Shown here piece after piece: positions 2,851 through 17,033 of a stretch of DNA of 36,312 nucleotides. The notes under the pieces were generated by a model. It was not told the origin of the DNA. It searched no databases and worked only from the letters and a program-made list of their open reading frames with translations. The position numbers and the translations under genes were made by a program. Source of the stretch: Candidatus Cloacimonadota bacterium (GTDB lineage: Bacteria > Cloacimonadota > Cloacimonadia > Cloacimonadales > TCS61); NCBI GenBank assembly GCA_021736135.1, contig JAIPGO010000035.1:1-36312 (forward strand), written 5' to 3'. The number at the start of each line of letters is the position of its first letter. Position 1 is the first letter of the stretch.

Positions 2851-3345
2851 ATGAAGGCAATGAAAAAACTACTATTTTCGTTTATCTTTCTCTATTTGCT
2901 CTGGCTGCTGCTAACGGGTACTAACACTCAGGAACTGCTTCTGGGTGCAGGTGTATCTCTATTGATCAGTCTGCTATTTTATAAAAAGCTGGGTATATAT
3001 GGAGAATTCCGGGTGAGTCTGAAAGCGTTCATTTACGCCATCATCTACGTATTCGTTTTTCTGGGAGCGCTGATCAAGTCTAATCTTGATGTGGCCTTCC
3101 GGGTGATCCAGCCCGTGATACCCATAAATCCGGGGATCGTGCTGGTTAAAACCACATTGAAAAGTCCCCTGGCAAGACTGATCCTGGCGAATTCCATCAC
3201 TCTAACTCCGGGAACATTGACCGTGGAGACAGCCGGAGAGGATTTTTATATTCACTGGATAGACGTGAAAGCGGCAGATGAATCAGGCGCTACGGAAGCA
3301 ATCGTGAGAAACTTTGAAAAATACCTGGAGGTGATCTTTGGTTGA
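2851..3345 (+). CDS. mnhE: MnhE/MrpE-like subunit of an Mbx-type membrane complex
   Basis: This 164-residue membrane protein is the first gene of the 11-gene operon. The hydrophobic N-terminal half has about three membrane segments (roughly 8-25, 28-48, 60-80). The cytoplasmic C-terminal half carries the family signature region around VLVKTTLKSPLARLILANS and ITLTPGTLTVE, which identifies PF01899 MnhE. In Mrp antiporters and in MBH/MBX complexes this subunit belongs to the cation/proton antiporter module. The ATG at 2851 has GGGAG eight bases upstream; a second in-frame ATG four codons later is possible. It overlaps mnhF by 8 bp, a sign of translational coupling. Confidence 0.9.
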   Translation: MKAMKKLLFSFIFLYLLWLLLTGTNTQELLLGAGVSLLISLLFYKKLGIYGEFRVSLKAFIYAIIYVFVFLGALIKSNLDVAFRVIQPVIPINPGIVLVKTTLKSPLARLILANSITLTPGTLTVETAGEDFYIHWIDVKAADESGATEAIVRNFEKYLEVIFG

Positions 3346-3598
3346 GATAATTTATAATATTGCGGGTATCATAGCCTTAGCCGGCATAGTTATTGCCTTT
3401 ATCCGGCTGCTATTGGGACCGACTGCTGCCGACCGTACGGTTGCCCTGGATGCCATGACCATTATCACGATATCATTGATCGCCTGGCTGGGCTATATGC
3501 TGGGCAGAAAAATCTACCTGGATGTGGCAATGGTTTATGCGCTGATAAGTTTCATCGGCGTGGTTGCCATTGCGCGTTACCTGGAAAGGGGGCTATAA
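3338..3598 (+). CDS. mnhF: MnhF/MrpF-like subunit
   Basis: This small (86 aa) protein has three predicted membrane segments. It carries the MrpF signature GPTAADRTVALDAM followed by LDVAMVYALISFIGVVAIARY, typical of PF04066. The start is a TTG at 3338, chosen because no ATG lies in frame nearby and because GGAGGTGATC, an ideal complement of the 16S rRNA 3' end, ends one base before it; the GGAGG core is 5 nt from the TTG. The start lies inside the end of mnhE. In MBX/MBH-type complexes MrpE, F and G homologues form part of the Na+/H+ antiporter module that converts proton movement to a sodium gradient. Confidence 0.9.
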   Translation: MVEIIYNIAGIIALAGIVIAFIRLLLGPTAADRTVALDAMTIITISLIAWLGYMLGRKIYLDVAMVYALISFIGVVAIARYLERGL

Positions 3599-3934
3599 AT
3601 GGCTATGGCAGGAGCAATTATCAGTCTTATTGGCGCGGTATTTCTCTTTCTGGGAGCTTTAGGCGTGCTGCGCATGCCGGATATATATAACCGCATGCAG
3701 GCAGGCACGAAAGCGACGACCCTGGGTTCCATATTATTTTTACTTGGTCTGGGACTGGGGCACTTTCATAAGGTATGCATCTGCAAAACTATCATACTGG
3801 TGCTATTCATCATATTTACCAATCCCATATCTTCGCATGCCCTGGCACGGGCTGCGCATTATATAGGCATCCGGTTGACCAAAAAGACAGTACTTGATAA
3901 ACTTCATGAGGAAGACAGGGAGGAACTGGTATGA
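3599..3934 (+). CDS. mnhG: MnhG/MrpG-like subunit
   Basis: The protein is 111 aa with three membrane segments. The signature RMPDIYNRMQAGTKATTLG after the first helix is diagnostic of PF03334 PhaG/MnhG. Its ATG follows the mnhF stop directly, with AAGGGGG as ribosome-binding site. The TGA stop overlaps the ATG of the next gene (ATGA). The C-terminal tail (about 86-111) is charged and probably cytoplasmic. It is a partner of MnhE and MnhF in the antiporter half of the complex. Confidence 0.9.
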   Translation: MAMAGAIISLIGAVFLFLGALGVLRMPDIYNRMQAGTKATTLGSILFLLGLGLGHFHKVCICKTIILVLFIIFTNPISSHALARAAHYIGIRLTKKTVLDKLHEEDREELV

Positions 3935-4185
3935 TATTAACAATAATAATAGTGCTGGGCATATTAATGCTGGCAGCAGCATTTATGGCGCTATACCTGA
4001 AGGATCTGCTTTCGGCGATCATTGCCAGCGGTGCCATAAGCCTGATGGCAAGCGTAATCTATATTATACTGGCAGCACCTGATGTGGCTATGACGGAAGC
4101 AGCGATCGGTTCGGGACTGACCACGATAGTATTCCTATATGCATTGCACCTGGTGAGAAAAAAGCAGGAGGATAAGCATGATTAA
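3931..4185 (+). CDS. mbxD: DUF4040 (MbhD/MbxD-like) subunit
   Basis: This short (84 aa) protein has three hydrophobic helices and carries APDVAMTEAAIGSGLTT, the hallmark of the DUF4040 segment (PF13244). In classical Mrp antiporters that segment forms the end of MrpA; in MBH and MBX complexes it is a free-standing subunit, as here. The acidic and polar residues of this motif are thought to take part in the ion path. It starts in ATGA overlap with mnhG and its end overlaps the next gene by 8 bp. Confidence 0.85.
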   Translation: MILTIIIVLGILMLAAAFMALYLKDLLSAIIASGAISLMASVIYIILAAPDVAMTEAAIGSGLTTIVFLYALHLVRKKQEDKHD

Positions 4186-4864
4186 GAGATTTTTTTCACT
4201 TATCTTCGTAGTCCTGCTGGCACTGGTATTTCTGCCATTGGTCACGGAGATAAAACCGCTGAGCGAATTAGGAATGACATCTGCCAAATATGCCGAAGAC
4301 GGAGCTGCGGAACTGGGAGCAGCAAACCTGGTGACATCCGTGGTGGTAACCTATCGCGGGTTGGATACACTGGGCGAAGTAACCGTGCTTTTTATCACGA
4401 CAGCCGGAATAGGCTTTATGCTGCGGCGTAAAACAATTTTACCGGAAAAAAAGAGAAGAGCTTCCGAAATTTTAAAAAGCGGAACCTCCTTCCTTCTGCC
4501 TTTGATCATACTATTTGGCGTATATATTTTCGTGCATGGTCATCTCACGCCGGGTGGCGGCTTTCAGGGCGGAGTAGTTATCGCCTCTGCCATTGTGCTT
4601 TTGATGCTTTCGGATATTAATATGCATCCTGATCATAATATACTCAACTGGCTGGAATCGCTATCAGGTGCCTTTTACGTGATAATGGGCATTTTGGGAT
4701 TAATACTTGCCGGCGGATTTCTGGATAACCGGTTTCTGCCATTGGGAGAATTCGGGAAAATATTCAGTGCCGGTGCAATACCTGTTATATATTCACTCAT
4801 CGGCTTGAAAGTGGGTGCGGAACTGGTGGGCATACTCAATAAACTGGGACGGGAGGACAAATGA
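4178..4864 (+). CDS. mnhB: MbhE-MnhB-type subunit (two family segments in one protein)
   Basis: The protein has 228 residues and two parts. Residues ~1-85 match the MbhE segment that in Mrp systems sits at the C-terminus of MrpA: AANLVTSVVVTYRGLDTLGE followed by VTVLFITTAGIGFML. Residues ~98-225 are a MnhB domain (PF04039), with HGHLTPGGGFQGGVV as signature, then four membrane helices. Archaeal MBH encodes these as separate MbhE and MbhF genes; here they are joined. The ATG lies 8 bp inside the DUF4040 gene, and the TGA overlaps the next ATG. It is part of the cation-translocating module. Confidence 0.87.
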   Translation: MIKRFFSLIFVVLLALVFLPLVTEIKPLSELGMTSAKYAEDGAAELGAANLVTSVVVTYRGLDTLGEVTVLFITTAGIGFMLRRKTILPEKKRRASEILKSGTSFLLPLIILFGVYIFVHGHLTPGGGFQGGVVIASAIVLLMLSDINMHPDHNILNWLESLSGAFYVIMGILGLILAGGFLDNRFLPLGEFGKIFSAGAIPVIYSLIGLKVGAELVGILNKLGREDK

Positions 4865-5214
4865 CAATAATCACCATACTGGGTTTTCTCCTGATCATAA
4901 TCGGTCTTTGGGGCATGCTGACGCGCAAACATCTCTTCCGCATAATACTGGGCTTTTCTATAATTGATACCGGGATCCATTTAGTAATAGTATCACTGGG
5001 TTATATAAAAGGCAGAACGGCACCTATTTTTGATGCAGACCTCTCCCCTATTGATGCCATCAACCGGATCGTTGACCCGATACCCTCGGCACTGGTATTA
5101 ACGGCAATCGTGATTGGACTGGCAGTAACAGCTTTGATGCTTGTTTACGTAATCCAGATGCACCGCCACAAAGGTTCGCTGGAAATCAGCGATTACGAGG
5201 AGTTGAAATGGTAA
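4861..5214 (+). CDS. mnhC: MnhC/NuoK-like subunit
   Basis: The protein is 117 aa with three membrane helices, homologous to MrpC and complex I NuoK (PF00420). Visible family features are GLWGMLTRKHLFRIILGFSI near the start and DPIPSALVLTAIVIGLAVTA in the third helix. In NuoK and MrpC, glutamates in the membrane helices link the proton channels. It overlaps mnhB by 4 bp and the double antiporter gene by 7 bp, so translation is coupled throughout. Confidence 0.92.
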   Translation: MTIITILGFLLIIIGLWGMLTRKHLFRIILGFSIIDTGIHLVIVSLGYIKGRTAPIFDADLSPIDAINRIVDPIPSALVLTAIVIGLAVTALMLVYVIQMHRHKGSLEISDYEELKW

Positions 5215-8200
5215 ATCCTATCTATATATTCGTTATTGCTTTATTTTCAGCTTTTCTGCTGCCGGTGATCGATAAACTGGGGCGCAAAGTAACGCTAGGA
5301 GTCTTTTATCTTTCCTTAACCGCCATATTTGCTGTGACCTTATTATGGTTTAGAGCTTTCGGCGAAGGGGCATTAATAGAAAACATCTTCACAGCGGGAT
5401 CGCTGCCGCCCTTTTCCATCAACCTAAGAATGGGCACAATTGAAGCTTTCATTATGCTGTTCGTCAATTTTGGCGCTTTGCTGGGAGCAATATATCTCTA
5501 TGGCAAGCTGCTGGAAAATAAAGTTTATGCCCTGATGCTCTTCCTCACCTTGATAATGGGAGTGAACGGATTGATCATGACGCGAGATATTTTTAATATA
5601 TTCGTGTTTCTGGAAATCACCTCGATATCATTATATGCCCTGATCGGGATCAAACAGGATGCCAGATCACTGGGCGCAGGTTTTAAATACATAATAGCCG
5701 GTGGACTGGCCTCGGCCTTTCTGCTGCTGGGAATTATATATGTATACCGGATAACCGGAAATCTGAATCTTGATCTGATCATCAGCGAGAATCCTCTGCT
5801 GCTATCCAAGGGCGGATTAATTGCCTTATTCCTGGTAGTGGTGGCATTTCTTATTGAGCTCAAGCCCTGGCCGGCCAATGGCTGGGCGCTGGACGTTTAT
5901 GAAGCTGCGGAACCCGGGATCAGCGCCATGGTAGCCAGCCTGGTGGCTGCCGGCATGGTCTTTGTATTCTATAAATTTATTCCCCTGCTGCCCCATAGCT
6001 GGCATGGAATGCTGATACTTTTTGGCATGCTGACCTTTGTTTTTTCCAATCTTACGGGTTTAAAACAGAAAAATGCCAGAAGACTGCTGGGATATTCCTC
6101 TATAGCGCAGATGGGACTGCTGATGGCAGTTTTGCTGTTGGTACGCCGTTTTAATGATGCCATGGACATACGCTATGCCCTTTCGGATATTGCTGCCGCA
6201 TTATTTGTAAATCATTTTCTGGCCAAAGCCGGGCTTTTCTGGCTTTCTGGAATTATTAATAAAGAAAAAGCGCGCGACTGGTCATTTAATAAGCAGCCGG
6301 TGCTGGTATTACTATTTGCGGTATTTATATTTGCCCTGGTGGGCTTACCGCCTTTCCCGGGATTCTGGGCCAAATGGACACTGATCACCAAGCTGGCGCA
6401 ATATAATATGATCGGCTGGATAGTACCCATTATAATCGGGTCTTTGCTGGAAGCTGCTTATCTACTCCGCTGGTTTGGAGCCACAATAAAAAGAGAACAG
6501 ACGGAACAGGTGATCATCCCCAGATATAAGATTCTTCCTCCACTGCTGGCGGCAATCGTGCTGGTGATCATATTTCCTTCTTTTGCCCCCTATATGACGG
6601 GGATGAAAACGATGTTCTTTTTCCCGCTGCTGGCAGCAGCAGTGCTCTGGCTGCTGGACGTTATGCCGGAAAGAATGCGGGGAATGGTGATGATATTGAT
6701 CCTGGCTGCCTTCGGCTGGTATATATATCCTCTGGCTAAGGGCATTGTGCTGATCTTTGAATTTATGTTCATAGCCGGCGGCATAGTTATTTCCCTTGCC
6801 AGCCTGAATTCAGCCAGACCGAAGCAGGGGTATTGGGAATTTCTGGTGATGCTGATCATGTCACTAGCTTTGATCCCGCTGGCAAAATCTTCCATGGAAT
6901 TCTTTCTTGCCTGGGAATTTATGACCGTGAGTTCCTGGCTTTTGATTTTACGCGGGAAAAACGGGGAGAAACCGGCACTTACTTATATCATGTTTTCTTT
7001 GGGTGCTGCGCTGCTGATCTTAACGGCGTTTGCTTTAAGCTTTGCCGAAACTGGCGAACTGGGACTGGTGCTTTTAAGCAATCTGAATATTTATGCGATC
7101 CCGGTATATATATTACTTGCCCTGGGATTCCTGGTGAAAGCAGCAGCAATGGGAGTTCATATCTGGCTGCCGGGAGCTTATTCGGAAGCGGAAGATGAAG
7201 TAACACCGATATTTGCCGGCATGATGAGCAAGATCAGTCTCTGGGGATTTATATTGCTTTTCGGATATATGGGGAATAAAGTTCTGGGCATATTCGAGCT
7301 GCCGGTACTGCTGGGCTGGATCGGCGTATTTACTGCTTTCTTTGGCGCGCTGATGGCTGTATTTCAGGAAGACATCAAATATCTGCTGGCATATTCATCT
7401 ATGAGCCAATTAGGATATATGATCCTTTCCGTTTCACTGCTCAGTCATCTGGGCTGGACCACTGCGCTTTATATGTCCGTGACGCATCTCTTTTTTAAAG
7501 GCATGCTCTTTCTGGCAGTGGCAGGCATCGTATCCCGCATCGGGACAACAAAGATGTATGAAATGGGCGGTCTGATCAAGAAGATGCCGGCATCTTTCAT
7601 CTCAGTATTAATTGCTATTATTGCCGTTTCAGGCGTACCGCCGCTTTCGGGATTTGGCGGAAAGTGGTTATTATATACAGCCCTGATAGAAAAAGGCTGG
7701 TACCTGCAGGCAGGACTTTCCTTCTTTGCCGGAGCAATAGCCTTTCTTTATCTTTTCCGCCTGATACATACCATCTTTTTAGGACAGCTTAAAGCTAGAT
7801 TCCGGGAAGTGAAAGAAGCTTCGCTCTGGTATATCGTACCCCAGTTCATCTTTGTGGGTGCGATCATGGCGATCTCGATGTTTCCCAATCTCATCCTGAA
7901 ACCGATAATGGCGGCAGTGGAAACGCAGTTCCCTTCACATGTGAACTGGGATGGCTATACTGTGATCACAGCTCTGGGTTACTGGAACGGTAATGCCGTG
8001 ATGATGATCACCATGGGCGTATTTATGGTACCGCTCATCTGGCTGCTGGTGAGAGTTAATATGGTGCAGAAAGTAGAGCAATTTAACATCGTATATGCTG
8101 CAGAACGCCCTGACAGACCTGAAACTACTCACTTTGCCTATAATTTCTTTGCGCATTATCAAAAAGCCATAGGCTTCCTGGTCAAGGAACAGATCACAAA

Positions 8201-8339
8201 TTTCTGGAATTCCGTTAGTGAATGGTTCCATTCGCTCAGTGCAACATTCCGGCATATTTACACGGGAAACGGGCAGACTTATGCTCTGCATATAATTATT
8301 TATATCGTAGTATTATATTCTCTTCTGGGGGTGAAATAA
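5208..8339 (+). CDS. Fused double proton-pump subunit (MbxH-MbxH' / MnhD-MnhD type), 1043 aa
   Basis: Two complete antiporter-like subunits (PF00361) occur in one chain. The first half (~1-480) has the key Glu of TM5 at E136 (FLEITS) and the TM7 Lys at K219 in the conserved KPWPANGWALDVYEAAEP region. The second half (~510-1043) has E570 (AWEFMT) and K644 followed by HIWLPGAYSEAEDEVTP. Both halves keep the later His/Lys motif (HFLAKAGLFWL; THLFFKGMLFL), so both channels look competent. NuoL/M/N subunits and archaeal MbxH/MbxH' are normally ~480-600 aa and separate. The C-terminal ~100 residues have an amphipathic stretch and a final helix, perhaps a lateral anchoring helix. There is no frameshift, so this is one protein. 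It should pump two ions per turnover if both halves work. Confidence 0.9.
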   Translation: MVNPIYIFVIALFSAFLLPVIDKLGRKVTLGVFYLSLTAIFAVTLLWFRAFGEGALIENIFTAGSLPPFSINLRMGTIEAFIMLFVNFGALLGAIYLYGKLLENKVYALMLFLTLIMGVNGLIMTRDIFNIFVFLEITSISLYALIGIKQDARSLGAGFKYIIAGGLASAFLLLGIIYVYRITGNLNLDLIISENPLLLSKGGLIALFLVVVAFLIELKPWPANGWALDVYEAAEPGISAMVASLVAAGMVFVFYKFIPLLPHSWHGMLILFGMLTFVFSNLTGLKQKNARRLLGYSSIAQMGLLMAVLLLVRRFNDAMDIRYALSDIAAALFVNHFLAKAGLFWLSGIINKEKARDWSFNKQPVLVLLFAVFIFALVGLPPFPGFWAKWTLITKLAQYNMIGWIVPIIIGSLLEAAYLLRWFGATIKREQTEQVIIPRYKILPPLLAAIVLVIIFPSFAPYMTGMKTMFFFPLLAAAVLWLLDVMPERMRGMVMILILAAFGWYIYPLAKGIVLIFEFMFIAGGIVISLASLNSARPKQGYWEFLVMLIMSLALIPLAKSSMEFFLAWEFMTVSSWLLILRGKNGEKPALTYIMFSLGAALLILTAFALSFAETGELGLVLLSNLNIYAIPVYILLALGFLVKAAAMGVHIWLPGAYSEAEDEVTPIFAGMMSKISLWGFILLFGYMGNKVLGIFELPVLLGWIGVFTAFFGALMAVFQEDIKYLLAYSSMSQLGYMILSVSLLSHLGWTTALYMSVTHLFFKGMLFLAVAGIVSRIGTTKMYEMGGLIKKMPASFISVLIAIIAVSGVPPLSGFGGKWLLYTALIEKGWYLQAGLSFFAGAIAFLYLFRLIHTIFLGQLKARFREVKEASLWYIVPQFIFVGAIMAISMFPNLILKPIMAAVETQFPSHVNWDGYTVITALGYWNGNAVMMITMGVFMVPLIWLLVRVNMVQKVEQFNIVYAAERPDRPETTHFAYNFFAHYQKAIGFLVKEQITNFWNSVSEWFHSLSATFRHIYTGNGQTYALHIIIYIVVLYSLLGVK

Positions 8340-8340
8340 C

Positions 8341-9258
8341 ATGGAACACGGACTCTTAATAAGTATCATATATGCCTTTATATCGCTGAGTGTTGCCACG
8401 ATCTGGGGACTGCTGCTGGGCGGGATCATGATGAAAGTGGTAGCCAGGGCACATGGGCGCTTTGGACCTCCTTTCTGGCAGCCGATCATTGACATCATCA
8501 AGAATAATGCCCGCAGGACTTCCATAAGTCATGGGATCATGTATTTTCTGGGACCGGTCTTCCGTATTGCCGGAGGAATGGGTACATTTCTTTTCATCCC
8601 GTTCATTTATGGTTCCATGGTTTTTGGCAATTTCAGTTTCGCCGGAGATCTTTTTCTGGTGATGTATTTCATCTTTTTCGGGCAACTGGGCATGGCTCTG
8701 GGAGCCGGAGAAAGCGGACATCCCTACAGCGCCATCGGCGTGGCACGCGGTTTGAGCCAGATGACGGCTTTTGAACTGCCTTTTGCTCTTTCAATCATTT
8801 CAATTGTCATCCAGTATGGCACGCTGAATATCACCAGCATCGTGGCTGCCCAGCAGGGCGGGATATTGCACTGGACGCTGTTTACCAATCCGCTGGCTAC
8901 AATAGCAGCCCTGATCGCTTTGCAGGGAATGAATATGCATAATCCCTTCAGTATCGTGATCGCACCTCAGGAAATACCGATCGGACCACCCACGGAATAT
9001 CACAGTAATTTTCTGGGTCTGCTGCAGACGAACCGGGGACTCTTCAATATTGCCAAGCTGGCGCTTTTTATGAATCTCTATTTCGGCGGCGCAACCAATC
9101 TCTTCAGCATGCTCATTAAAACCTTTGGCATCTATATGATCACGGTGATTGTCGGAGCATCTTTTCCACGCTTCCGCACCGAACAATCCATCCGCTTTTT
9201 CCTGGGTGTGCCTACGGTTATCGGGATACTGGCTGTGCTCGTTACCGGATATTTTTAA
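8341..9258 (+). CDS. mbxM: NuoH/MbhM-like membrane subunit linking redox and pump modules
   Basis: The protein is 305 aa with about eight membrane helices and belongs to the complex I subunit 1 family (PF00146). It has the first-loop motif ARAHGRFGPPFWQPIIDIIK, RGLSQMTAFELPFALSI in the middle, and a long acidic loop EIPIGPPTEYHSNFLGLLQ, the region that contacts the NuoB/NuoD-like subunits. In complex I and MBH this subunit transmits redox-driven change to the antiporter modules. Its ATG is one base after the previous stop, with a GGGGGTGA ribosome-binding site inside the preceding gene. Confidence 0.92.
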   Translation: MEHGLLISIIYAFISLSVATIWGLLLGGIMMKVVARAHGRFGPPFWQPIIDIIKNNARRTSISHGIMYFLGPVFRIAGGMGTFLFIPFIYGSMVFGNFSFAGDLFLVMYFIFFGQLGMALGAGESGHPYSAIGVARGLSQMTAFELPFALSIISIVIQYGTLNITSIVAAQQGGILHWTLFTNPLATIAALIALQGMNMHNPFSIVIAPQEIPIGPPTEYHSNFLGLLQTNRGLFNIAKLALFMNLYFGGATNLFSMLIKTFGIYMITVIVGASFPRFRTEQSIRFFLGVPTVIGILAVLVTGYF

Positions 9259-9267
9259 GGAGAATAT

Positions 9268-9891
9268 ATGGAAAATAAAGATAAAATGAAACTGGCAAAC
9301 GACGGACTGCCGGAACACGAAAAACCGCTTTTCTGTGATGCGCGGCCCCAGACTTATAAGCCACTGGGTAAATACGTGGAGAAATTCCTGAACTGGGCAC
9401 GTGCCAATTCACTCTGGATATTAGGTTACGGAACCGGCTGCGGTGCCATTGAACTGCGTCCGCTGATGACAGCACGTTTTGATATGTTCCGCTGGGGTCT
9501 GGCCCCCAGACCGACACCAAGGCAGGCAGGCGTATTCGTTATCGGCGGCTATATGAGCGTGAAAACCCTCAAGCGCGTTATCCGCAGTTATGAGCAGATG
9601 CAGGGACCAAAATTCGTTATCGCCCTGGGAAGCTGCACCATCAATGGCGGGATGTATTGGGATAGTTATAACACCATTAACAGGCTGGATCATTATCTGC
9701 CTGTGGATATCTATATCACGGGCTGCATGCCGCGTCCGGAAGCGCTGATCGCCGGATTTAATAAACTGAAAGCAATGATCAAAGCCCAGCAGACTGACGG
9801 GCAGAATGAATATGCCAGAAATTTCGACTGGTATAAGGCAAATCAGAAAAAGATCGTAAAAGACTGGAATATGCCGGATTATAACTGGTAG
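9268..9891 (+). CDS. mbxJ: NuoB/MbhJ-like Fe-S subunit with only three cluster cysteines
   Basis: The protein is 207 aa, soluble, of the NADH-quinone oxidoreductase 20-kDa family (PF01058). NuoB binds cluster N2 with a tandem Cys-Cys and two further cysteines; MBH uses Cys-x-x-Cys plus two. Here the first motif is GTGCGAIE, with Cys58 but Gly59 in place of the second cysteine. The others are Cys123 (GSCTINGG) and Cys153 (GCMPRPEA). Another cysteine, C23, lies in the N-terminal extension. Three-cysteine coordination leaves one iron open, as described for the proximal cluster of Pyrococcus furiosus MBS. The ATG has AAGGAG upstream. Neighbours are the NuoH-, NuoC- and NuoD-like genes. Confidence 0.9.
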   Translation: MENKDKMKLANDGLPEHEKPLFCDARPQTYKPLGKYVEKFLNWARANSLWILGYGTGCGAIELRPLMTARFDMFRWGLAPRPTPRQAGVFVIGGYMSVKTLKRVIRSYEQMQGPKFVIALGSCTINGGMYWDSYNTINRLDHYLPVDIYITGCMPRPEALIAGFNKLKAMIKAQQTDGQNEYARNFDWYKANQKKIVKDWNMPDYNW

Positions 9892-9901
9892 GAGATATTA
9901 T

Positions 9902-10441
9902 ATGAAGGAATTTATAGAAAAATTGATAGATAAGTATGCCATTAAGCCGATGCATTCCCGGCATGCCAATCAGGTGTTTCTTACCATTAAGCAGGACAGA
10001 CTGCCTGATGCCTTGACCTGGCTGCGTGATTTCGCCGGTTATACGCATCTGGCTTTCATTACTGCCGTTGATTATCCGGAAATTGAAAAGATCCAGCTTA
10101 CCTATATGGTGCATAACTACCAGGAAAACACCGATATTGGATTGCGCGTGCTTCTGGACCGGCGTCAACCCGAAATGATCTCCGTACATCATCTCTGGCA
10201 GCACGTTGCCACCTATCAGCGGGAACTGCATGAAATGTTCGGCATTGATTTTCCCGGGAGTCCCCGGCTTAAGGAGAATTTTGCCCTGGAAGGCTGGCAG
10301 GATGTTCCGCCGATGCGCCGCGACTTCGACACGAAGGAATATGCGGAGAAAACCTATTTTCCACGTCCCGGTCGTGAAACACATGACCCCAGAGAATATA
10401 TGAAACAGAAACTGTATCCCGACCCTAAGGAGGAGAAATAG
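9902..10441 (+). CDS. mbxK: NuoC/MbhK-like subunit
   Basis: The protein is 179 aa, of the complex I 30-kDa family (PF00329). The signature is near residues 100-150: RELHEMFGIDFPGSP, then LEGWQDVPPMRRDFDTKEY, matching the NuoC region that precedes the NuoD fold. It is a structural, cofactor-free subunit that supports the NuoD/MbhL-like subunit. GGAGATATTAT precedes the ATG. The ribosome-binding site of the next gene (AAGGAGG) lies within its last codons. The C-terminal ~40 residues, rich in Arg, Pro and Lys, extend beyond the core. Confidence 0.88.
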   Translation: MKEFIEKLIDKYAIKPMHSRHANQVFLTIKQDRLPDALTWLRDFAGYTHLAFITAVDYPEIEKIQLTYMVHNYQENTDIGLRVLLDRRQPEMISVHHLWQHVATYQRELHEMFGIDFPGSPRLKENFALEGWQDVPPMRRDFDTKEYAEKTYFPRPGRETHDPREYMKQKLYPDPKEEK

Positions 10442-11608
10442 ATGAAACAGGATAGAAGCAAATTTCCTCCCGTAGTTGACGGAAAATCACAATTCGATCT
10501 GGATTCAGGTAAATATATCAAGGTCTGGCAGGGACCCCAGCATCCGGGAGTAACCGGTAATATGGCGCTGGAACTGATCATTAGCGGAGATGAAGTAGTT
10601 GATCTTAAAACTCACGTCGGCTACCTGCACCGCGGTTTTGAAAAACTTATGGAACGCCGCCGTTATATTCAATGTTTCCCCATCGTCTGCCGCATCTGCG
10701 TACCGGAACCGGATACTAATGAATACCTGCTGGCGGCTGCTGCGGAAGAGCTTGCCGGCATAGAAATACCGGAAAAAGCGAAATGGCTGCGCACCTTGAC
10801 CCTGGAGCTATCGCGACTGGCAAGTTTTCTGATGTGGATCGGTGGTCAGGGCGGCGCTTTTGGAATGGGCACAGTAGCGCAATGGGCGATTGCCCAGCGT
10901 GATTTTGTGCTTGATCTTTTTGAAGAACTATCCGGTGGCCGCATATATCACATGTATATCATCCCCGGCGGCGTGCGCGATGACTTGCCACAAGGCTGGG
11001 ATAAACACCTGGAAGACGTATTGAAAAGAACAGAAAAACTGCTCAAAGAAATAGAAATAGTGCTTTTTAATAACGTGGTATTTAAGATGCGCGCTCAGAA
11101 CCTGGGCGTTATCACAACTGATATGGTGGATAAATATGGCATCGTGGGACCCAATGCCCGGGCAACCGGACTCAAGCGCGATCTGCGCAAAGATGAGCCG
11201 TACCTGGTTTATGATAAACTCGATTTCGAGGTGATCACCCGTGACTATTCCGATGCTTACAACCGCACTTACCTGCGCTGGCAGGAAATGTGGCAATCAA
11301 TTGACCTGATCAGACAGATAATGGCAAATATGCCGGCTGGAAACGATTATCACCATAATCTACCGAACGTGCTCAACTGGAAAATACCAGTGGGCGAAAC
11401 TTACGTGAAAGCAGAATCCACACGTGGCGAATATGGTTATTACATGGTTTCCGATGGCAGCGGCTATCCGCGCCGGGTTTACGTGCGCGGTCCCAGCTAT
11501 ACCCATGCTATGGTTCTGCTGGAACATCTGGCAGTGAACGTTAATATCGCAGATATGGCAGGACTGATGGTATCTCTGCATACCTATCCGCCGGAAATTG
11601 AGAGGTAA
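10442..11608 (+). CDS. mbxL: NuoD/MbhL-like large subunit lacking the NiFe-binding C-terminal CxxC
   Basis: The protein is 388 aa and similar to complex I 49-kDa and [NiFe]-hydrogenase large subunits (PF00346/PF00374): GPQHPGVTGNMALEL at the N-terminus and THVGYLHRGFEKLMERR, as in NuoD. Hydrogenases bind NiFe with two CxxC pairs. The N-terminal pair is present (C83 and C86, VCRIC), although the following His is absent (VPEPDTN). The C-terminal DPCxxC is replaced by HTYPPE at 380-385, ending in IER. NiFe therefore cannot be bound in the usual way, and the subunit should not evolve H2. Archaeal MbxL/MbsL is known to lack the full ligand set too. The start directly follows the mbxK stop. Confidence 0.9.
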   Translation: MKQDRSKFPPVVDGKSQFDLDSGKYIKVWQGPQHPGVTGNMALELIISGDEVVDLKTHVGYLHRGFEKLMERRRYIQCFPIVCRICVPEPDTNEYLLAAAAEELAGIEIPEKAKWLRTLTLELSRLASFLMWIGGQGGAFGMGTVAQWAIAQRDFVLDLFEELSGGRIYHMYIIPGGVRDDLPQGWDKHLEDVLKRTEKLLKEIEIVLFNNVVFKMRAQNLGVITTDMVDKYGIVGPNARATGLKRDLRKDEPYLVYDKLDFEVITRDYSDAYNRTYLRWQEMWQSIDLIRQIMANMPAGNDYHHNLPNVLNWKIPVGETYVKAESTRGEYGYYMVSDGSGYPRRVYVRGPSYTHAMVLLEHLAVNVNIADMAGLMVSLHTYPPEIER

Positions 11609-11612
11609 GTAA

Positions 11613-13388
11613 ATGAAATTAAAAGATTTTCTCTCCCCATTTTACGTCTGGAAACGGGCTTTTGATAAACCTTACACGACTCAGAAACCCCTGGAAGAAC
11701 GCCCCGGCGCTCCACGCTATCGAGGCTTTCACCAGAATGATATGGAAAAATGTATCGGCTGCGGTTCCTGCGAAACTATCTGCCAGAATGCAGCCATAGA
11801 TATGATGCCCGTGGAAGGCATAGAAACCACTTTTAAGGATAGCGGTCTGCGTCCCCGGATCGATTACGGACGCTGCTGCTGGTGTGCGCTCTGCGTGGAT
11901 ATCTGCACCACAGGTTCATTGAAGATGTCCAATGAATACATCTGGATCGATACTGATCCGGAAGTTTTCCGTTTCATTCCCGGGGCTATTGAGAAACCAT
12001 GGGATAACTTTGAAGAAGGTTACGCTCAGCATGAAAATTACACATTACTAAATCTTGATAGAATTGATATGAAAATGATGACGGCAGAGGAAAGTAAGCA
12101 GTCATTCCTGGAAATGGTGAAGGGCTACAGCAAAGCGGAAGCCATGAAAGAAGCGCAACGCTGTGTGGAATGTGGACTTTGCGTGGCATCATGTCCTGCT
12201 CATATGGATATTCCTCAATATATCAGTGCCATTCGAGACGACAATCTCGATGAAGCTTTACGCCTTTTGTATGCTACCAATCCCATGCCGGCGACCTGCG
12301 GACGAATATGCACTCATCTATGTGAAAGCGCTTGCTCCATTGGCGTTAAAGGTGAACCCCTCGCTATCCGCTGGCTCAAACGCTATATTGTTGACCAGAT
12401 AGAAGATTCAAAATTTAAAAGTATTCTACAGGATGAATTTAAACCTAATGGTAAAAAGGTTGCCATCATCGGTTCCGGACCCGGCGGATTAAGCGCTGCC
12501 TACTATCTGATCACCAGCGGCTATGCTGTTGATATTTATGAAGCCAGCGAACGCGCCGGCGGTATGATACGTTATGGAGTACCGGAATACCGTATGCCTT
12601 ATGATCAGCTTGATCAGGATGTGAACTATATTAAAGAACTAGGCGTGGAAATCAAGCTTAATAACCGGATAGGCAAAGATACACAATTTAAAGAGCTTTA
12701 TGAAAACTATGATGCTGTATTCTTTTCCACCGGGCTGGTCGATCCATATAAACTGGCAATTGAAGGTGAAGATCTGCCAGGAGTATTTTCCGGCTTGCAG
12801 ATCCTTGATGATGTGACCAAAGGTTTAAAACCGAAAATAGGCATGAAAACAGCTATAATCGGAGGCGGTAACGTTGCTATGGATGCTTCCAGAACTGCTT
12901 TGAGATTAGGCGCAGATGCTACAATTATCTACCGGAGACGTGAAGAAGATATGCCTGCTGATGAAGAAGAGATCCACGAGGCGCATCAGGAAAATGTTAA
13001 ATTTATCACCCAGGCAATACCTATAAAAATCGAGAAAACGGAAAATGGAAAACTGAAATTCTTCTGGAATAATTCTGAAATGGTTCAAAAGGAAGGAGCA
13101 TCCCGTCCCTCCCCCATTGCCATTGAAGGAGACATCGATTTTGTGGAAGTTGATTCCGTGATCTCAGCAATTGGTCAGGGAGCAGATTACTCCTTCCTTT
13201 CAGAAGAATACGAAAGCCAGATAAAATTCAAGAAAGGGAAAGTAATCATCAATGATCATGGTCAGACTACTAATCCTAAAATCTTTGCCGGTGGCGATAT
13301 TGCCAATCCCAAGGCAGATGCCATATCCGCTATTGCCGATGGACATAATGCAGCCCTTGGTATCGATAAATTCCTGAATAAGCAGTAA
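11613..13388 (+). CDS. MbxN-like ferredoxin subunit fused to a GltD/NfnB-type FAD-NADPH oxidoreductase
   Basis: This 591-residue fusion has three parts. Residues ~1-115 are an MbhN/NuoI-like two-cluster ferredoxin, with CxxCxxCxxxC at C47-C57 and again at C88-C98. Residues ~155-270 are the GltD N-terminal Fe-S domain, with C184-C194 (CVECGLCVASC) and C229-C241 (CGRICTHLCESAC). Residues ~280-590 are the two-Rossmann flavoprotein: an FAD motif GSGPGG at 287-292, and a second dinucleotide motif GGGNVAMDASRTALRLGA from about 417. The latter is followed by YRRREEDMPA (440-449), whose arginines fit NADPH. This would wire NAD(P)H through FAD and up to four [4Fe-4S] clusters to the complex. It is the last gene of the operon, 4 bp after mbxL. 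A related flavoprotein gene next to Mbx genes in Thermotoga is recalled, not checked. Confidence 0.9.
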   Translation: MKLKDFLSPFYVWKRAFDKPYTTQKPLEERPGAPRYRGFHQNDMEKCIGCGSCETICQNAAIDMMPVEGIETTFKDSGLRPRIDYGRCCWCALCVDICTTGSLKMSNEYIWIDTDPEVFRFIPGAIEKPWDNFEEGYAQHENYTLLNLDRIDMKMMTAEESKQSFLEMVKGYSKAEAMKEAQRCVECGLCVASCPAHMDIPQYISAIRDDNLDEALRLLYATNPMPATCGRICTHLCESACSIGVKGEPLAIRWLKRYIVDQIEDSKFKSILQDEFKPNGKKVAIIGSGPGGLSAAYYLITSGYAVDIYEASERAGGMIRYGVPEYRMPYDQLDQDVNYIKELGVEIKLNNRIGKDTQFKELYENYDAVFFSTGLVDPYKLAIEGEDLPGVFSGLQILDDVTKGLKPKIGMKTAIIGGGNVAMDASRTALRLGADATIIYRRREEDMPADEEEIHEAHQENVKFITQAIPIKIEKTENGKLKFFWNNSEMVQKEGASRPSPIAIEGDIDFVEVDSVISAIGQGADYSFLSEEYESQIKFKKGKVIINDHGQTTNPKIFAGGDIANPKADAISAIADGHNAALGIDKFLNKQ

Positions 13389-14927: not shown

Positions 14928-17033
14928 ATGAAAGATAGAAAGAACACCCTTATACTGATTAGTGCCATCCTGATCAGTCTAATGCAGGTAGTTTTTAATC
15001 CTTTTCGCAGTTGGGAACGCACTCTTAATCTTAATCAAGGACAAATTGCCGAGCGTGAGATTGTGGCTCCAATAGAATTTGACATTTACAAAAGCCCCGC
15101 CAGACTTGAAAGGGAACAGAAAGAGGCGGAAGAACAAGTTAAAGATATTTACACAATATCAGATAATATAACTTTTAATGCCTTACGTAACCTAGATATT
15201 ATTTTCCGCCATTTTGAAAAACCCGACAGTATGAGTAACTCAGCCACCTTACAGGAAGAATTGAAAAGCAAAGGTTACAATCTCAGTCAGGAAACCTGCC
15301 AATACCTCATAAACCAGCAATTACGAAATAAAATCTATGACTATACTGCAGAAAAAGTAGCACGTATTTTTGAGATTGGGATATATCCGGAAAATTATTC
15401 AGATTCCAAGATCACCGTTAAGAGAAAGAATAACGTTCGAGATTACAATTTATTTAAGCTTTACGGATATGAGGAAGCACGAGACAAACTTATTGACGGT
15501 TTTAGCGATAATGCCGGAAAGGCAGTAATTGCTGAAATTGCAGACAACGTTCTGGTTGTAAACATAATCCAGGCACAAAATGCCACTTCGCAGGAAAAAC
15601 AGAGAGCAAGACTTCAGGTGCCTTTAACTGCGGGTAAGGTTCTCAAGAATGAAACGATTATAAGAAAGGGGGAGCGAGTTCGCGAAGAGCAGTTACAGGT
15701 GCTGCAAAGCCTGCATAAAGCTCTCGATGAGCAGAAGGTTGAAAACCAGAACTACAAGGCAATATTATCGGTTATTGGAACCTTCCTTTCCGTGTTACTG
15801 GTTCTTGTTATGTTTAAACTATTCATTAAAACCATCGACGACTTCCGGCAATATACAGAGAAACAGTATTTGTTGCTATTAATAATGTTTTTTACCGTAT
15901 CGCTGCTGACGATAGTAATCTGTAACCGTTTTGGCATTTCAGCGATGATCCTGCCCTTAAGTTTCTTTACAATAGTTGTCATGCAGCTTTTTAATCGTAA
16001 ACTTGCCTTTCTATATACTACTCTGCAGTTCTTTCTGGTAGTGATACTCACTCAGGGACAATATCTGCAGCCGCTATTACTAACTTTATCCGCCTTAGCA
16101 GTGCTGATTGTACCTAATTATAATAAGATTAATATCCGTCAGCTTTCGGTAAGTATCTATATCATGATTTTTCTGGTTCTGTTTACTATTGGTTTCGGTT
16201 TGAATCAGTTATTAAGTTTCGGGATAATAATGCAGCGGATTCTTTATGGGGGGATATCGGTATTTATATCCACGATACTGGCATTATCCCTGATACCCTA
16301 TCTGGAAGTACGCTTTGAAATTGTGACGCGGCAGCAGCTGCTGGAATTGCTGAATCTGGAAAATCCACTTCTTAAAAGACTGTCTAAAGAAATACCGGGG
16401 ACTTATCATCATTGCCTGGTTGTTGGCAATCTGGCAGAAAGTGCCGCCGAAGCAATTGGTGCCAATCATCTATTAGCCCGCGTTGGCAGTTATTTTCATG
16501 ACATTGGTAAACTAAGTAATACTAAGGTTTTTATAGAAAATAATCCGGCAGCAGCCAGGATTCATGACGATTTATTACCTAATCAGAGTGCTTATGCCAT
16601 CAAAAAACATATCAGCGCCGGGATTGAACTGGCAAAGAACGCGGGACTGCCGAAGCAGGTAATAGCAATAATTTCTCAGCATCATGGAACCTCAGTGATC
16701 AAGTATTTCAGGAATAAGGCAATTGAGAGCAATCTGGAATTTGAGGATCATGAATTCAGATACGATGGCCCCTTACCTCAAACGAGGGAGGCTGCTATTA
16801 TTATGATCGCTGATATTGTAGAATCACACTCCAAAGCAATGAATGAAATTAATCCGGAAATAATTGACAATCTCCTGCATGAGACTGTGAATAAACTTAT
16901 TCACGAAGGTCAGCTGGCAGAAGCACCACTGACACTCAAAGAACTGAATAAAATCATAAAAGCCATGCATCCCATTTTAACCGGTGTTTACAGCACCCGG
17001 ATCGAATATCCCGAAGACCATGATCGAAATTGA
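14928..17033 (+). CDS. pgpH: PgpH-type 7TM-HD phosphohydrolase (c-di-AMP phosphodiesterase)
   Basis: This 701-aa protein has the architecture of PgpH/YqfF. It has an N-terminal membrane helix (~8-25), an extracytoplasmic 7TMR-HDED domain (~30-275), seven membrane helices (~280-465) and a cytoplasmic HD domain (~480-690). The metal-binding residues are visible in GTYHHCLVVGNLAESAA and in YFHDIGK (H524-D525). Known members hydrolyse cyclic di-AMP. No ribosome-binding site precedes the ATG; the only AGGAGG nearby is buried in the terminator stem 24 nt upstream. It overlaps ybeY, a pairing common in other bacteria (yqfF-ybeY). The substrate is inferred from the family. Confidence 0.9.
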   Translation: MKDRKNTLILISAILISLMQVVFNPFRSWERTLNLNQGQIAEREIVAPIEFDIYKSPARLEREQKEAEEQVKDIYTISDNITFNALRNLDIIFRHFEKPDSMSNSATLQEELKSKGYNLSQETCQYLINQQLRNKIYDYTAEKVARIFEIGIYPENYSDSKITVKRKNNVRDYNLFKLYGYEEARDKLIDGFSDNAGKAVIAEIADNVLVVNIIQAQNATSQEKQRARLQVPLTAGKVLKNETIIRKGERVREEQLQVLQSLHKALDEQKVENQNYKAILSVIGTFLSVLLVLVMFKLFIKTIDDFRQYTEKQYLLLLIMFFTVSLLTIVICNRFGISAMILPLSFFTIVVMQLFNRKLAFLYTTLQFFLVVILTQGQYLQPLLLTLSALAVLIVPNYNKINIRQLSVSIYIMIFLVLFTIGFGLNQLLSFGIIMQRILYGGISVFISTILALSLIPYLEVRFEIVTRQQLLELLNLENPLLKRLSKEIPGTYHHCLVVGNLAESAAEAIGANHLLARVGSYFHDIGKLSNTKVFIENNPAAARIHDDLLPNQSAYAIKKHISAGIELAKNAGLPKQVIAIISQHHGTSVIKYFRNKAIESNLEFEDHEFRYDGPLPQTREAAIIMIADIVESHSKAMNEINPEIIDNLLHETVNKLIHEGQLAEAPLTLKELNKIIKAMHPILTGVYSTRIEYPEDHDRN

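Follow-up and report, generated by a model that had tools for sequence, protein, structure and literature searches.

A bacterial MBS/MBX-type complex with one of four Ni-Fe ligands left in Candidatus Cloacimonadota, and its possible role in NAD(P)H-linked reduction of S-S bonds

The window studied here is a whole stretch of 36,312 nucleotides from a Candidatus Cloacimonadota bacterium, and it encodes what is almost certainly an MBS/MBX-type complex without a Ni-Fe site. Taken as a whole, the explanation that we favour is a bacterial complex of this type which would carry electrons from NAD(P)H or ferredoxin to an S-S bond and couple this to ion movement, and we consider it reasonably probable. 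At the level of sequence, the gene content, homology, ligand loss, three-cysteine motif and cofactor motifs are established. Stated in this way, the finding is a known property of a known family, because cysteine-pair loss in Mbx is already in print: the accessible text of PMC6085437 uses the lack of the Ni-Fe cysteine pairs to separate Mbx large subunits from hydrogenases, and passages of PMC6349859 report the loss for Ehr. The variant features are, to judge from the sequences, two fusions, a cysteine rearrangement and breadth in bacteria.

The large subunit is part of a compact cluster of 12 genes at 2851-13388, all on the + strand. The genes, and the residues of the large subunit discussed below, are as follows.

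2851..3345, + strand: MnhE-like antiporter subunit, MbsA-like by family (Pfam MNHE, 135.8 bits)
3338..3598, + strand: MrpF-like subunit, MbsB-like by family (Pfam MrpF_PhaF, 71.1 bits)
3599..3934, + strand: MnhG-like subunit, MbsC-like by family (Pfam PhaG_MnhG_YufB, 89 bits)
3931..4185, + strand: MbhD-like subunit, MbsD-like by family (Pfam MbhD, 72.7 bits)
4178..4864, + strand: MbhE plus MnhB subunit, MbsE-like by family (Pfam MnhB 84.3 bits, MbhE 30.8 bits)
4861..5214, + strand: MnhC/NuoK-like subunit, MbsG-like by family (Pfam Oxidored_q2, 82.4 bits)
5208..8339, + strand: double antiporter of 1043 aa, an MbsH-like half fused to an MbsH'-like half (6u8y_H and 6u8y_X; two Proton_antipo_M stretches by Pfam)
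8341..9258, + strand: NuoH-like membrane anchor, MbsM-like by family (Pfam NADHdh, 160.5 bits)
9268..9891, + strand: small subunit, NuoB/MbsJ-like (best PDB match 6u8y_J, 214 bits)
9902..10441, + strand: NuoC-like subunit, MbsK-like by family (Pfam Complex1_30kDa, 93.9 bits)
10442..11608, + strand: large subunit, NuoD/MbsL-like, 388 aa (best PDB match 6u8y_L, 309 bits)
10688..10699, + strand: C83-R84-I85-C86 of the large subunit, where C86 is the first hydrogenase L1 ligand position and C83 adjoins the invariant R84 (alignment and conservation)
10706..10708, + strand: E89, the second L1 ligand position (Glu in 80 of the best 80 of 569 relatives)
11579..11596, + strand: H380-E385 of the large subunit, the replacement of DPCxxC (alignment with the in-genome [NiFe] paralogue)
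11613..13388, + strand: NuoI/MbsN-like two-cluster domain fused to a GltD/NfnL-like module, 591 aa (6u8y_N, 87.7 bits, residues 3-118)

The gene order is the same in those related-genome loci that are long enough to show it. An Mrp-type module with two antiporter units, as in MBS and MBX, is present, and in the window the two units are fused: residues 7-310 of the double antiporter match 6u8y_H and residues 503-1038 match 6u8y_X, which makes it a fusion of MbsH and MbsH'. Among the best 80 of 569 relatives, 58 have a match to this protein; it is fused over its whole length in 43, and in 13 of the remaining 15 the match begins at a locus edge.

The sequence of the large subunit places it with MBS. 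It scores 309 bits against 6u8y_L, 217 against the best complex I chain and 154 against MbhL (6cfw_L), and the best PDB matches of the large, small and antiporter subunits are all P. furiosus MBS chains (6u8y_L, 6u8y_J, 6u8y_H and 6u8y_X). A midpoint-rooted tree was built from 30 of the 80 relatives (the best 80 of 569) and 13 other rows, for which the tool warns of long branches; here a starred clade of 38 rows (100/99) unites the large subunit with MbsL and two further Mbx types, and complex I (98/86) and the group-4 hydrogenases (100/100) stand apart from the MBS-type clade. A structure was also predicted for the large subunit, with a mean pLDDT of 86.4 and with residues 34-38 and 383-388 below 50. 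Foldseek ranks 6u8y_L first for this model (E 1.4e-30), and the top 50 rows of VIA-align are complex I and NDH chains (Z 46.9-49.0), MbsL not being among them. With nothing but complex I and NDH chains in those 50 rows, the fold by itself cannot tell MBS from complex I, and because of the pLDDT below 50 at 383-388 the model is uninformative on the C-terminal motif.

That motif was the subject of the original prediction, which read the DPCxxC expected near the C-terminus of a hydrogenase as HTYPPE, and the reading is borne out by the frame and by an alignment. The frame starts with ATG, has no internal stop and encodes 388 aa. Its C-terminus, L-H-T-Y-P-P-E-I-E-R, stands against V-D-P-C-Y-C-C-T-E-R in a [NiFe] paralogue from the same genome, and the DPCxxC columns fall on H380-T381-Y382-P383-P384-E385. 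This is no accident or sequencing error, since columns 383, 384 and 385 are P, P and E in all of the best 80 of 569 relatives, of which 63 have Y and 17 have C at column 382. The protein stops three residues past E385, and the paralogue runs for 40 residues past its DPCxxC; the C-terminal extension for maturation-protease cleavage is absent from the 388 aa of the large subunit. The concern that automatic annotation may call the protein a nickel-dependent hydrogenase did not materialize: Pfam NiFeSe_Hases gives 13.0 bits, under its cut-off of 25.8, and the profile that passes is NCBIfam PRK06075, "NADH-quinone oxidoreductase subunit D", with 398.4 bits (cut-off 360).

Both CxxC and DPCxxC are present in the paralogue, a second homologue at G000:C81 which has all four Ni-Fe ligands (VVERICGICSTSH and VDPCYCCTER) and whose best PDB match is the P. 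furiosus hydrogenase MbhL, at 291 bits. It belongs to a group-4 [NiFe] hydrogenase cluster (locus L032, 426-17792) with hypA, an AIRS-family (hypE-like) gene, hypD and hypF upstream and a HycI-type protease gene downstream. A PyrK-like FAD/NAD-binding protein and Fe-S proteins are also encoded there, upstream of a NuoH-like gene.

To the question raised with the original prediction, whether hypA-F occur elsewhere in the genome and are needed here, the answer is that hyp genes are present and adjoin the other enzyme, and that hypD tracks the group-4 hydrogenase and not the window gene. The comparison covered 59 genomes, including the window's own. Carriers of the window-type gene were the 21 with a match of at least 58% identity over more than 150 residues, which left out G028 (a 57-residue fragment), G014 and G041 (a 43% type) and hits of 26-27%. 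Genomes with a group-4 hydrogenase were the 16 with a 33-37% match, leaving out the partial match of G014, and both Cys motifs were present in 9 of the 9 that were checked out of these 16. All 26 hypD matches were counted as positive, G027 among them although it is below the family cut-off. By this count hypD is found in 11 of 21 carriers and 15 of 38 non-carriers (Fisher p 0.42), and in 15 of 16 genomes with a group-4 hydrogenase versus 11 of 43 without (p 2.4e-6), G028 being the only group-4 genome that lacks it. Ten of the 21 carriers have no hypD match, and six of these (G011, G012, G016, G029, G035 and G038) are at least 95% complete with at most 5% contamination. Judged by co-occurrence of hypD, the dependence of group-4 hydrogenases on Hyp maturation is not seen for the window-type gene.

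The N-terminal cysteines require a different register from the one first proposed. The original prediction held that the N-terminal CxxC (C83, C86) remains; the string C-R-I-C does exist, but it is not the L1 pair and it supplies one ligand, not two. In the alignment of the window protein with the in-genome paralogue, VVERICGICSTS / PIVCRICVPEPD, the first L1 cysteine is C86 and the second is E89, and alignments with the paralogue and with MBS both put C83 in place of the Glu that precedes Arg84. The four Ni-Fe ligand positions are then C86, E89, Y382 and E385, of which one is still Cys. Read through these alignments, the CxxC is coincidental: one of its cysteines is an old ligand and the other is new. 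In the best 80 of 569 relatives column 86 is C in 55, A in 24 and S in 1, columns 89 and 385 are E in all 80, and the number of Ni-Fe ligand cysteines kept is 0 in 25, 1 in 38, 2 in 17 and never more than 2. As a pair, C83 and C86 occur together in 53 of these 80, C83 alone in 23, C86 alone in 2 and neither in 2. The further proposal of a structural role for the remaining pair, or of one in sulfur chemistry, finds little support for the pair as such, since C86 corresponds to the MbsL C85 that passages of PMC7684303 report as non-catalytic, and is replaced by Ala or Ser in 25 of the best 80 of 569.

Column 83 behaves differently from column 86. It is C in 76 of the best 80 of 569 relatives, and the four exceptions (L083, L096, L133 and L138) carry C at 82, so that a Cys at 82 or 83 precedes Arg84, itself invariant, in 80 of 80. 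The conservation of column 83 is by itself unexceptional, because 131 of the 388 columns have one residue common to at least 76 of these best 80 and are therefore conserved at least equally; the other cysteine columns are far behind, column 86 with 55 and column 78 with 53. The E73A mutagenic primer for Salmonella Hyd-5 in PMC3940037 translates to FVARICG with Ala at 73, which identifies column 83 with Glu73, and excerpts of the same paper describe Glu73 as near the active site, His229 and the proximal cluster.

The small subunit carries the MBS-type proximal motif. Its loop, GTGCGA---IEL, is three residues shorter than SAGSCNNCDIEI in the in-genome hydrogenase, and three cluster cysteines are present by sequence: C58, C123 and C153. 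Small-subunit rows were obtained for 74 of the best 80 of 569 relatives, 68 of them covering the C58 motif, and where covered the three cysteines are kept in 68 of 68, 71 of 71 and 73 of 73. A further cysteine, C23, is outside the motif. The position of MbsJ C25 is Gly55 in the window, and Gly in 66 and Ala in 2 of the 68 covered rows from these best 80. The best PDB match is 6u8y_J at 214 bits and the next is at 139. In P. furiosus MBS, three cysteines bind the catalytic (proximal) cluster, whose open iron is proposed to split polysulfide, and MbsJ C25 is not a ligand; C25, MbsL C85 and MbsL C385 are all reported in the same passages as uninvolved in catalysis (PMC7684303). Of these three positions, C85 is kept in the window (C86), C385 is Tyr and C25 is Gly; being reported as non-catalytic, they are not counted as family-defining. 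The quinone residues of complex I, His38 and Tyr87 in Nqo4, are T38 and V87 in the large subunit, each in all of the best 80 of 569.

Since Cys82/83 is found in all of the best 80 of 569 relatives, and each of the 68 covered small-subunit rows has Gly or Ala where MbsJ has C25, one could imagine that Cys82/83 completes the proximal cluster or holds the substrate in an NAD(P)H-driven MBS version found in this large bacterial clade. The residue would then be an inter-subunit, perhaps hemilabile, ligand or a persulfide-forming residue beside the catalytic cluster. We regard this as a tentative suggestion and think it rather unlikely. Against it stand the 131 columns conserved at least equally to column 83, and a second Cloacimonadota type in which Cys83 occurs along with the small-subunit C25, so that there is no simple swap. 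The idea that Cys83 simply substitutes for MbsJ C25 was rejected, with L055, L141 and L142 having both and with MbsL and L023 having C25 without C83. Were Cys82/83 to bind the proximal cluster as its fourth ligand, this would close the iron that has to be open for MBS chemistry, which would count against an MBS-like reaction here. In the open-licence literature searched, no discussion was found of the 82/83 cysteine or of the whole bacterial clade.

This second Mbx-type large subunit of Cloacimonadota is encoded at L055 7562-8650 (= L145) and in L139-L142, with the motif PLVCRINVVEPD. It has 0 of the 4 Ni-Fe cysteines and none in its C-terminal motif, yet Cys83 is present; the small-subunit C25 is present in the three distinct genes that cover it (L055 = L145, L141 and L142).

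The last gene of the cluster joins a NuoI-type two-cluster domain to a GltD/NfnL-like part, which has two further Fe-S motifs and sites for FAD and NAD(P)H. The N subunit was obtained from 78 of the best 80 of 569 relatives, 71 of them covering both domains. Its 17 cysteines (eight of NuoI type, eight in the GltD domain, and C89) are kept in every covered relative of these best 80 (77-78 rows), with a single ambiguous X as the exception. Two forms of the NAD(P)H site occur among the 73 covered (from the best 80 of 569): 41, like the window, have a short loop with Tyr-Arg-Arg, and 32 have a longer loop with Glu at the position of the second Arg. We take the short-loop form to be of NADP(H) type and the longer-loop form to be of NAD(H) type, a pattern that suggests switching of the nucleotide, NADP(H) or NAD(H), among members of the one family (window 11613-13388 and relatives L059-L138). 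The best PDB matches of the module are NfnL-type chains: 4ylf_B at 322 bits, then 9n5u_A (NfnA), 9bov_A and, lower, 5jca_L (NfnI). The first was deposited as dihydropyrimidine dehydrogenase subunit A and is presumably T. maritima NfnL. NCBIfam PRK13984, "putative oxidoreductase", spans the whole fusion, and the window protein scores 726.9 bits, below the cut-off of 946; that cut-off was passed in 1 of 14 control genomes, a set that includes T. maritima. A profile search of the 12-gene cluster found no NfnS-type partner. Linkage of MBX with a SudA/GltD-like NADPH module was already proposed in 2010 for Thermosphaera, according to parts of PMC3035292.

Elsewhere in the genome there are three more long frames with GltD-like domains, G000:C73:80148-81368 (1128 aa), C34:34329-35531 (1476 aa) and C2:25748-26890 (992 aa), which are possibly other flavin-based oxidoreductase fusions.

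Altogether, the complex is almost certainly related to complex I and equipped with an Mrp-type Na+/H+ antiporter arm, and we suspect that it works as an NAD(P)H- and/or ferredoxin-driven reductase of polysulfide or disulfide coupled to H+ or Na+ transport, a role that seems somewhat better than an even bet; substrate, direction and ion coupling are what we infer here. NAD(P)H would donate electrons to the FAD of the GltD-like module, with ferredoxin perhaps a further donor, and the electrons would pass through the GltD and NuoI-type Fe-S clusters of the N fusion to the small subunit's proximal [4Fe-4S] cluster. That cluster may reduce an S-S bond, in polysulfide or some other disulfide, at the pocket where the small and large subunits adjoin. 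The large subunit, without Ni-Fe, would shape the pocket and relay the redox event, via the NuoH-like anchor, to the two fused antiporter units. The T. maritima homologue mbxA is up 4.36-fold with S0, as given in part of PMC9431562. The donor may differ from that of P. furiosus MBS, because excerpts of PMC7684303 describe that enzyme as using ferredoxin, and because its N subunit has 208 aa and no GltD module.

An earlier view counts against a polysulfide reductase: passages of PMC2678158 and PMC3035292 proposed that MBX makes NADPH from ferredoxin. The present complex might in the same way be an ion-coupled ferredoxin:NAD(P)+ oxidoreductase, Rnf-like in effect, in which GltD is the true second redox site and the pocket is vestigial or a coupling element only. 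The NAD(P)H-site motifs, kept in their two versions (41 and 32 of 73 covered, from the best 80 of 569), favour this, as does that earlier proposal. We nevertheless think it unlikely, since a vestigial site would not need R84, E89, E385, T38 and V87 each in 80 of the best 80 of 569, and the pocket is the catalytic site in MBS according to the accessible text of PMC7684303. It is less likely again that the GltD-like FAD bifurcates as in NfnL, so that ferredoxin receives one electron and the polysulfide site the other, or that it runs this reaction in reverse. The NfnL-type PDB matches of the module point that way, but the NfnS-type partner was not seen in the cluster, and the domain plan is no different in GltD that does not bifurcate.

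A quinone-reducing complex I or Fpo-like enzyme would explain why the large subunit passes the NuoD-type PRK06075 (398.4 bits) and shares the fold; with H38 and Y87 replaced by T and V in all of the best 80 of 569, sequence and tree closer to MBS, and Mrp modules E, F, G and B present, it is very improbable, and a quinone reductase was rejected on T38/V87. Least credible of all is a working hydrogenase whose metal site is unusual. Homology to group-4 hydrogenases is real (6cfw_L, 154 bits), but 0-2 of the four ligand cysteines are found in each of the best 80 of 569, the C-terminal extension is missing, hypD does not track the gene and has no match in six high-completeness carriers, and the same genome has a four-Cys group-4 hydrogenase adjoining hyp genes. 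A hydrogenase with altered ligands was dropped on the ligand counts, the missing extension and the hypD distribution. The statement in the original prediction that the sequence argues against H2 production is well supported, with one of four ligands, no C-terminal extension and no tracking by hypD.

Compared with known systems, the preferred reading, an ion-coupled reductase of S-S bonds, leans most on the membrane-bound sulfane reductase MBS of the archaeon Pyrococcus furiosus (formerly MBX, PDB 6u8y), the closest relative of known structure, whose J, L, H, H' and N subunits were matched directly and the others by family. The two share the shortened small-subunit loop with three cluster cysteines and the loss of Ni-Fe ligands and quinone residues. 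Unlike in P. furiosus, H and H' are one protein in the window and N is fused to a GltD/NfnL-like module, and the window has Gly at MbsJ C25, Tyr at MbsL C385 and Cys83 at MbsL Leu82. The Mbx of T. maritima is a bacterial MBS homologue, called a putative sulfur-reducing complex in passages of PMC9431562. The Riftia pachyptila symbiont Mrp-Mbx, likened here by its description in part of PMC11636981, is of the putative S0-reducing, ion-coupled kind. Ehr complexes are also group-4 hydrogenase relatives without Ni-Fe ligands and with Mrp-like subunits; Ehr is a loose class, and those in the accessible parts of PMC6349859 are proposed to pair with formate dehydrogenase, unlike the window complex with its GltD module. 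Group-4 Mbh (6cfw) and the in-genome paralogue at G000:C81 share common ancestry with the window complex for most subunits. Unlike it, they keep CxxC and DPCxxC, and the paralogue also has the C-terminal extension, hyp genes and a HycI-type protease.

The relatives come from a scan of genome contigs, and the best 80 of 569 that were confirmed, from which the large subunit was taken in all 80, are 60 to 92% identical to the window. The nearest among them are L059 (Candidatus Cloacimonadota, 92%) and L060 (Candidatus Stygibacter). These best 80 include spirochaetes, gamma- and alphaproteobacteria (Thiohalocapsa, Magnetospirillum, Celeribacter), Bacteroidales, Neomarinimicrobiota, Delongbacteria, Aminicenantes and others, mostly as metagenome assemblies in which single taxon labels may be binning errors. 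The bacterial form is widespread, including gammaproteobacterial genera named for sulfur (Thiohalocapsa), has its own NAD(P)H module, and shows a different arrangement of cysteines near the cluster which in MBS is the catalytic one. If it is truly an NAD(P)H-driven disulfide or polysulfide pump, an energy-conserving enzyme would have been overlooked in many genomes, whose annotation would list its large subunit as NADH-quinone oxidoreductase subunit D.

Matches of 23-29% identity were also seen in frames of 403-517 aa (G055, G058, G059, G065, G091-G095 and others), perhaps another group-4-like large-subunit type. Downstream of the N gene, no family but a rubrerythrin-like one recurs in more than 4 of 65 loci, few representatives having been annotated. 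The rubrerythrin-like gene, grouped by BLAST with two representatives checked by Pfam, is found there in 27 of the 65 loci and in several phyla (for example L127 and L104), and is not among the three genes following the cluster in the window. The window has a LysM protein and then, at 14928-17033, a gene of 7TM-HD type (7TMR-HDED and HD domain) downstream of the cluster.
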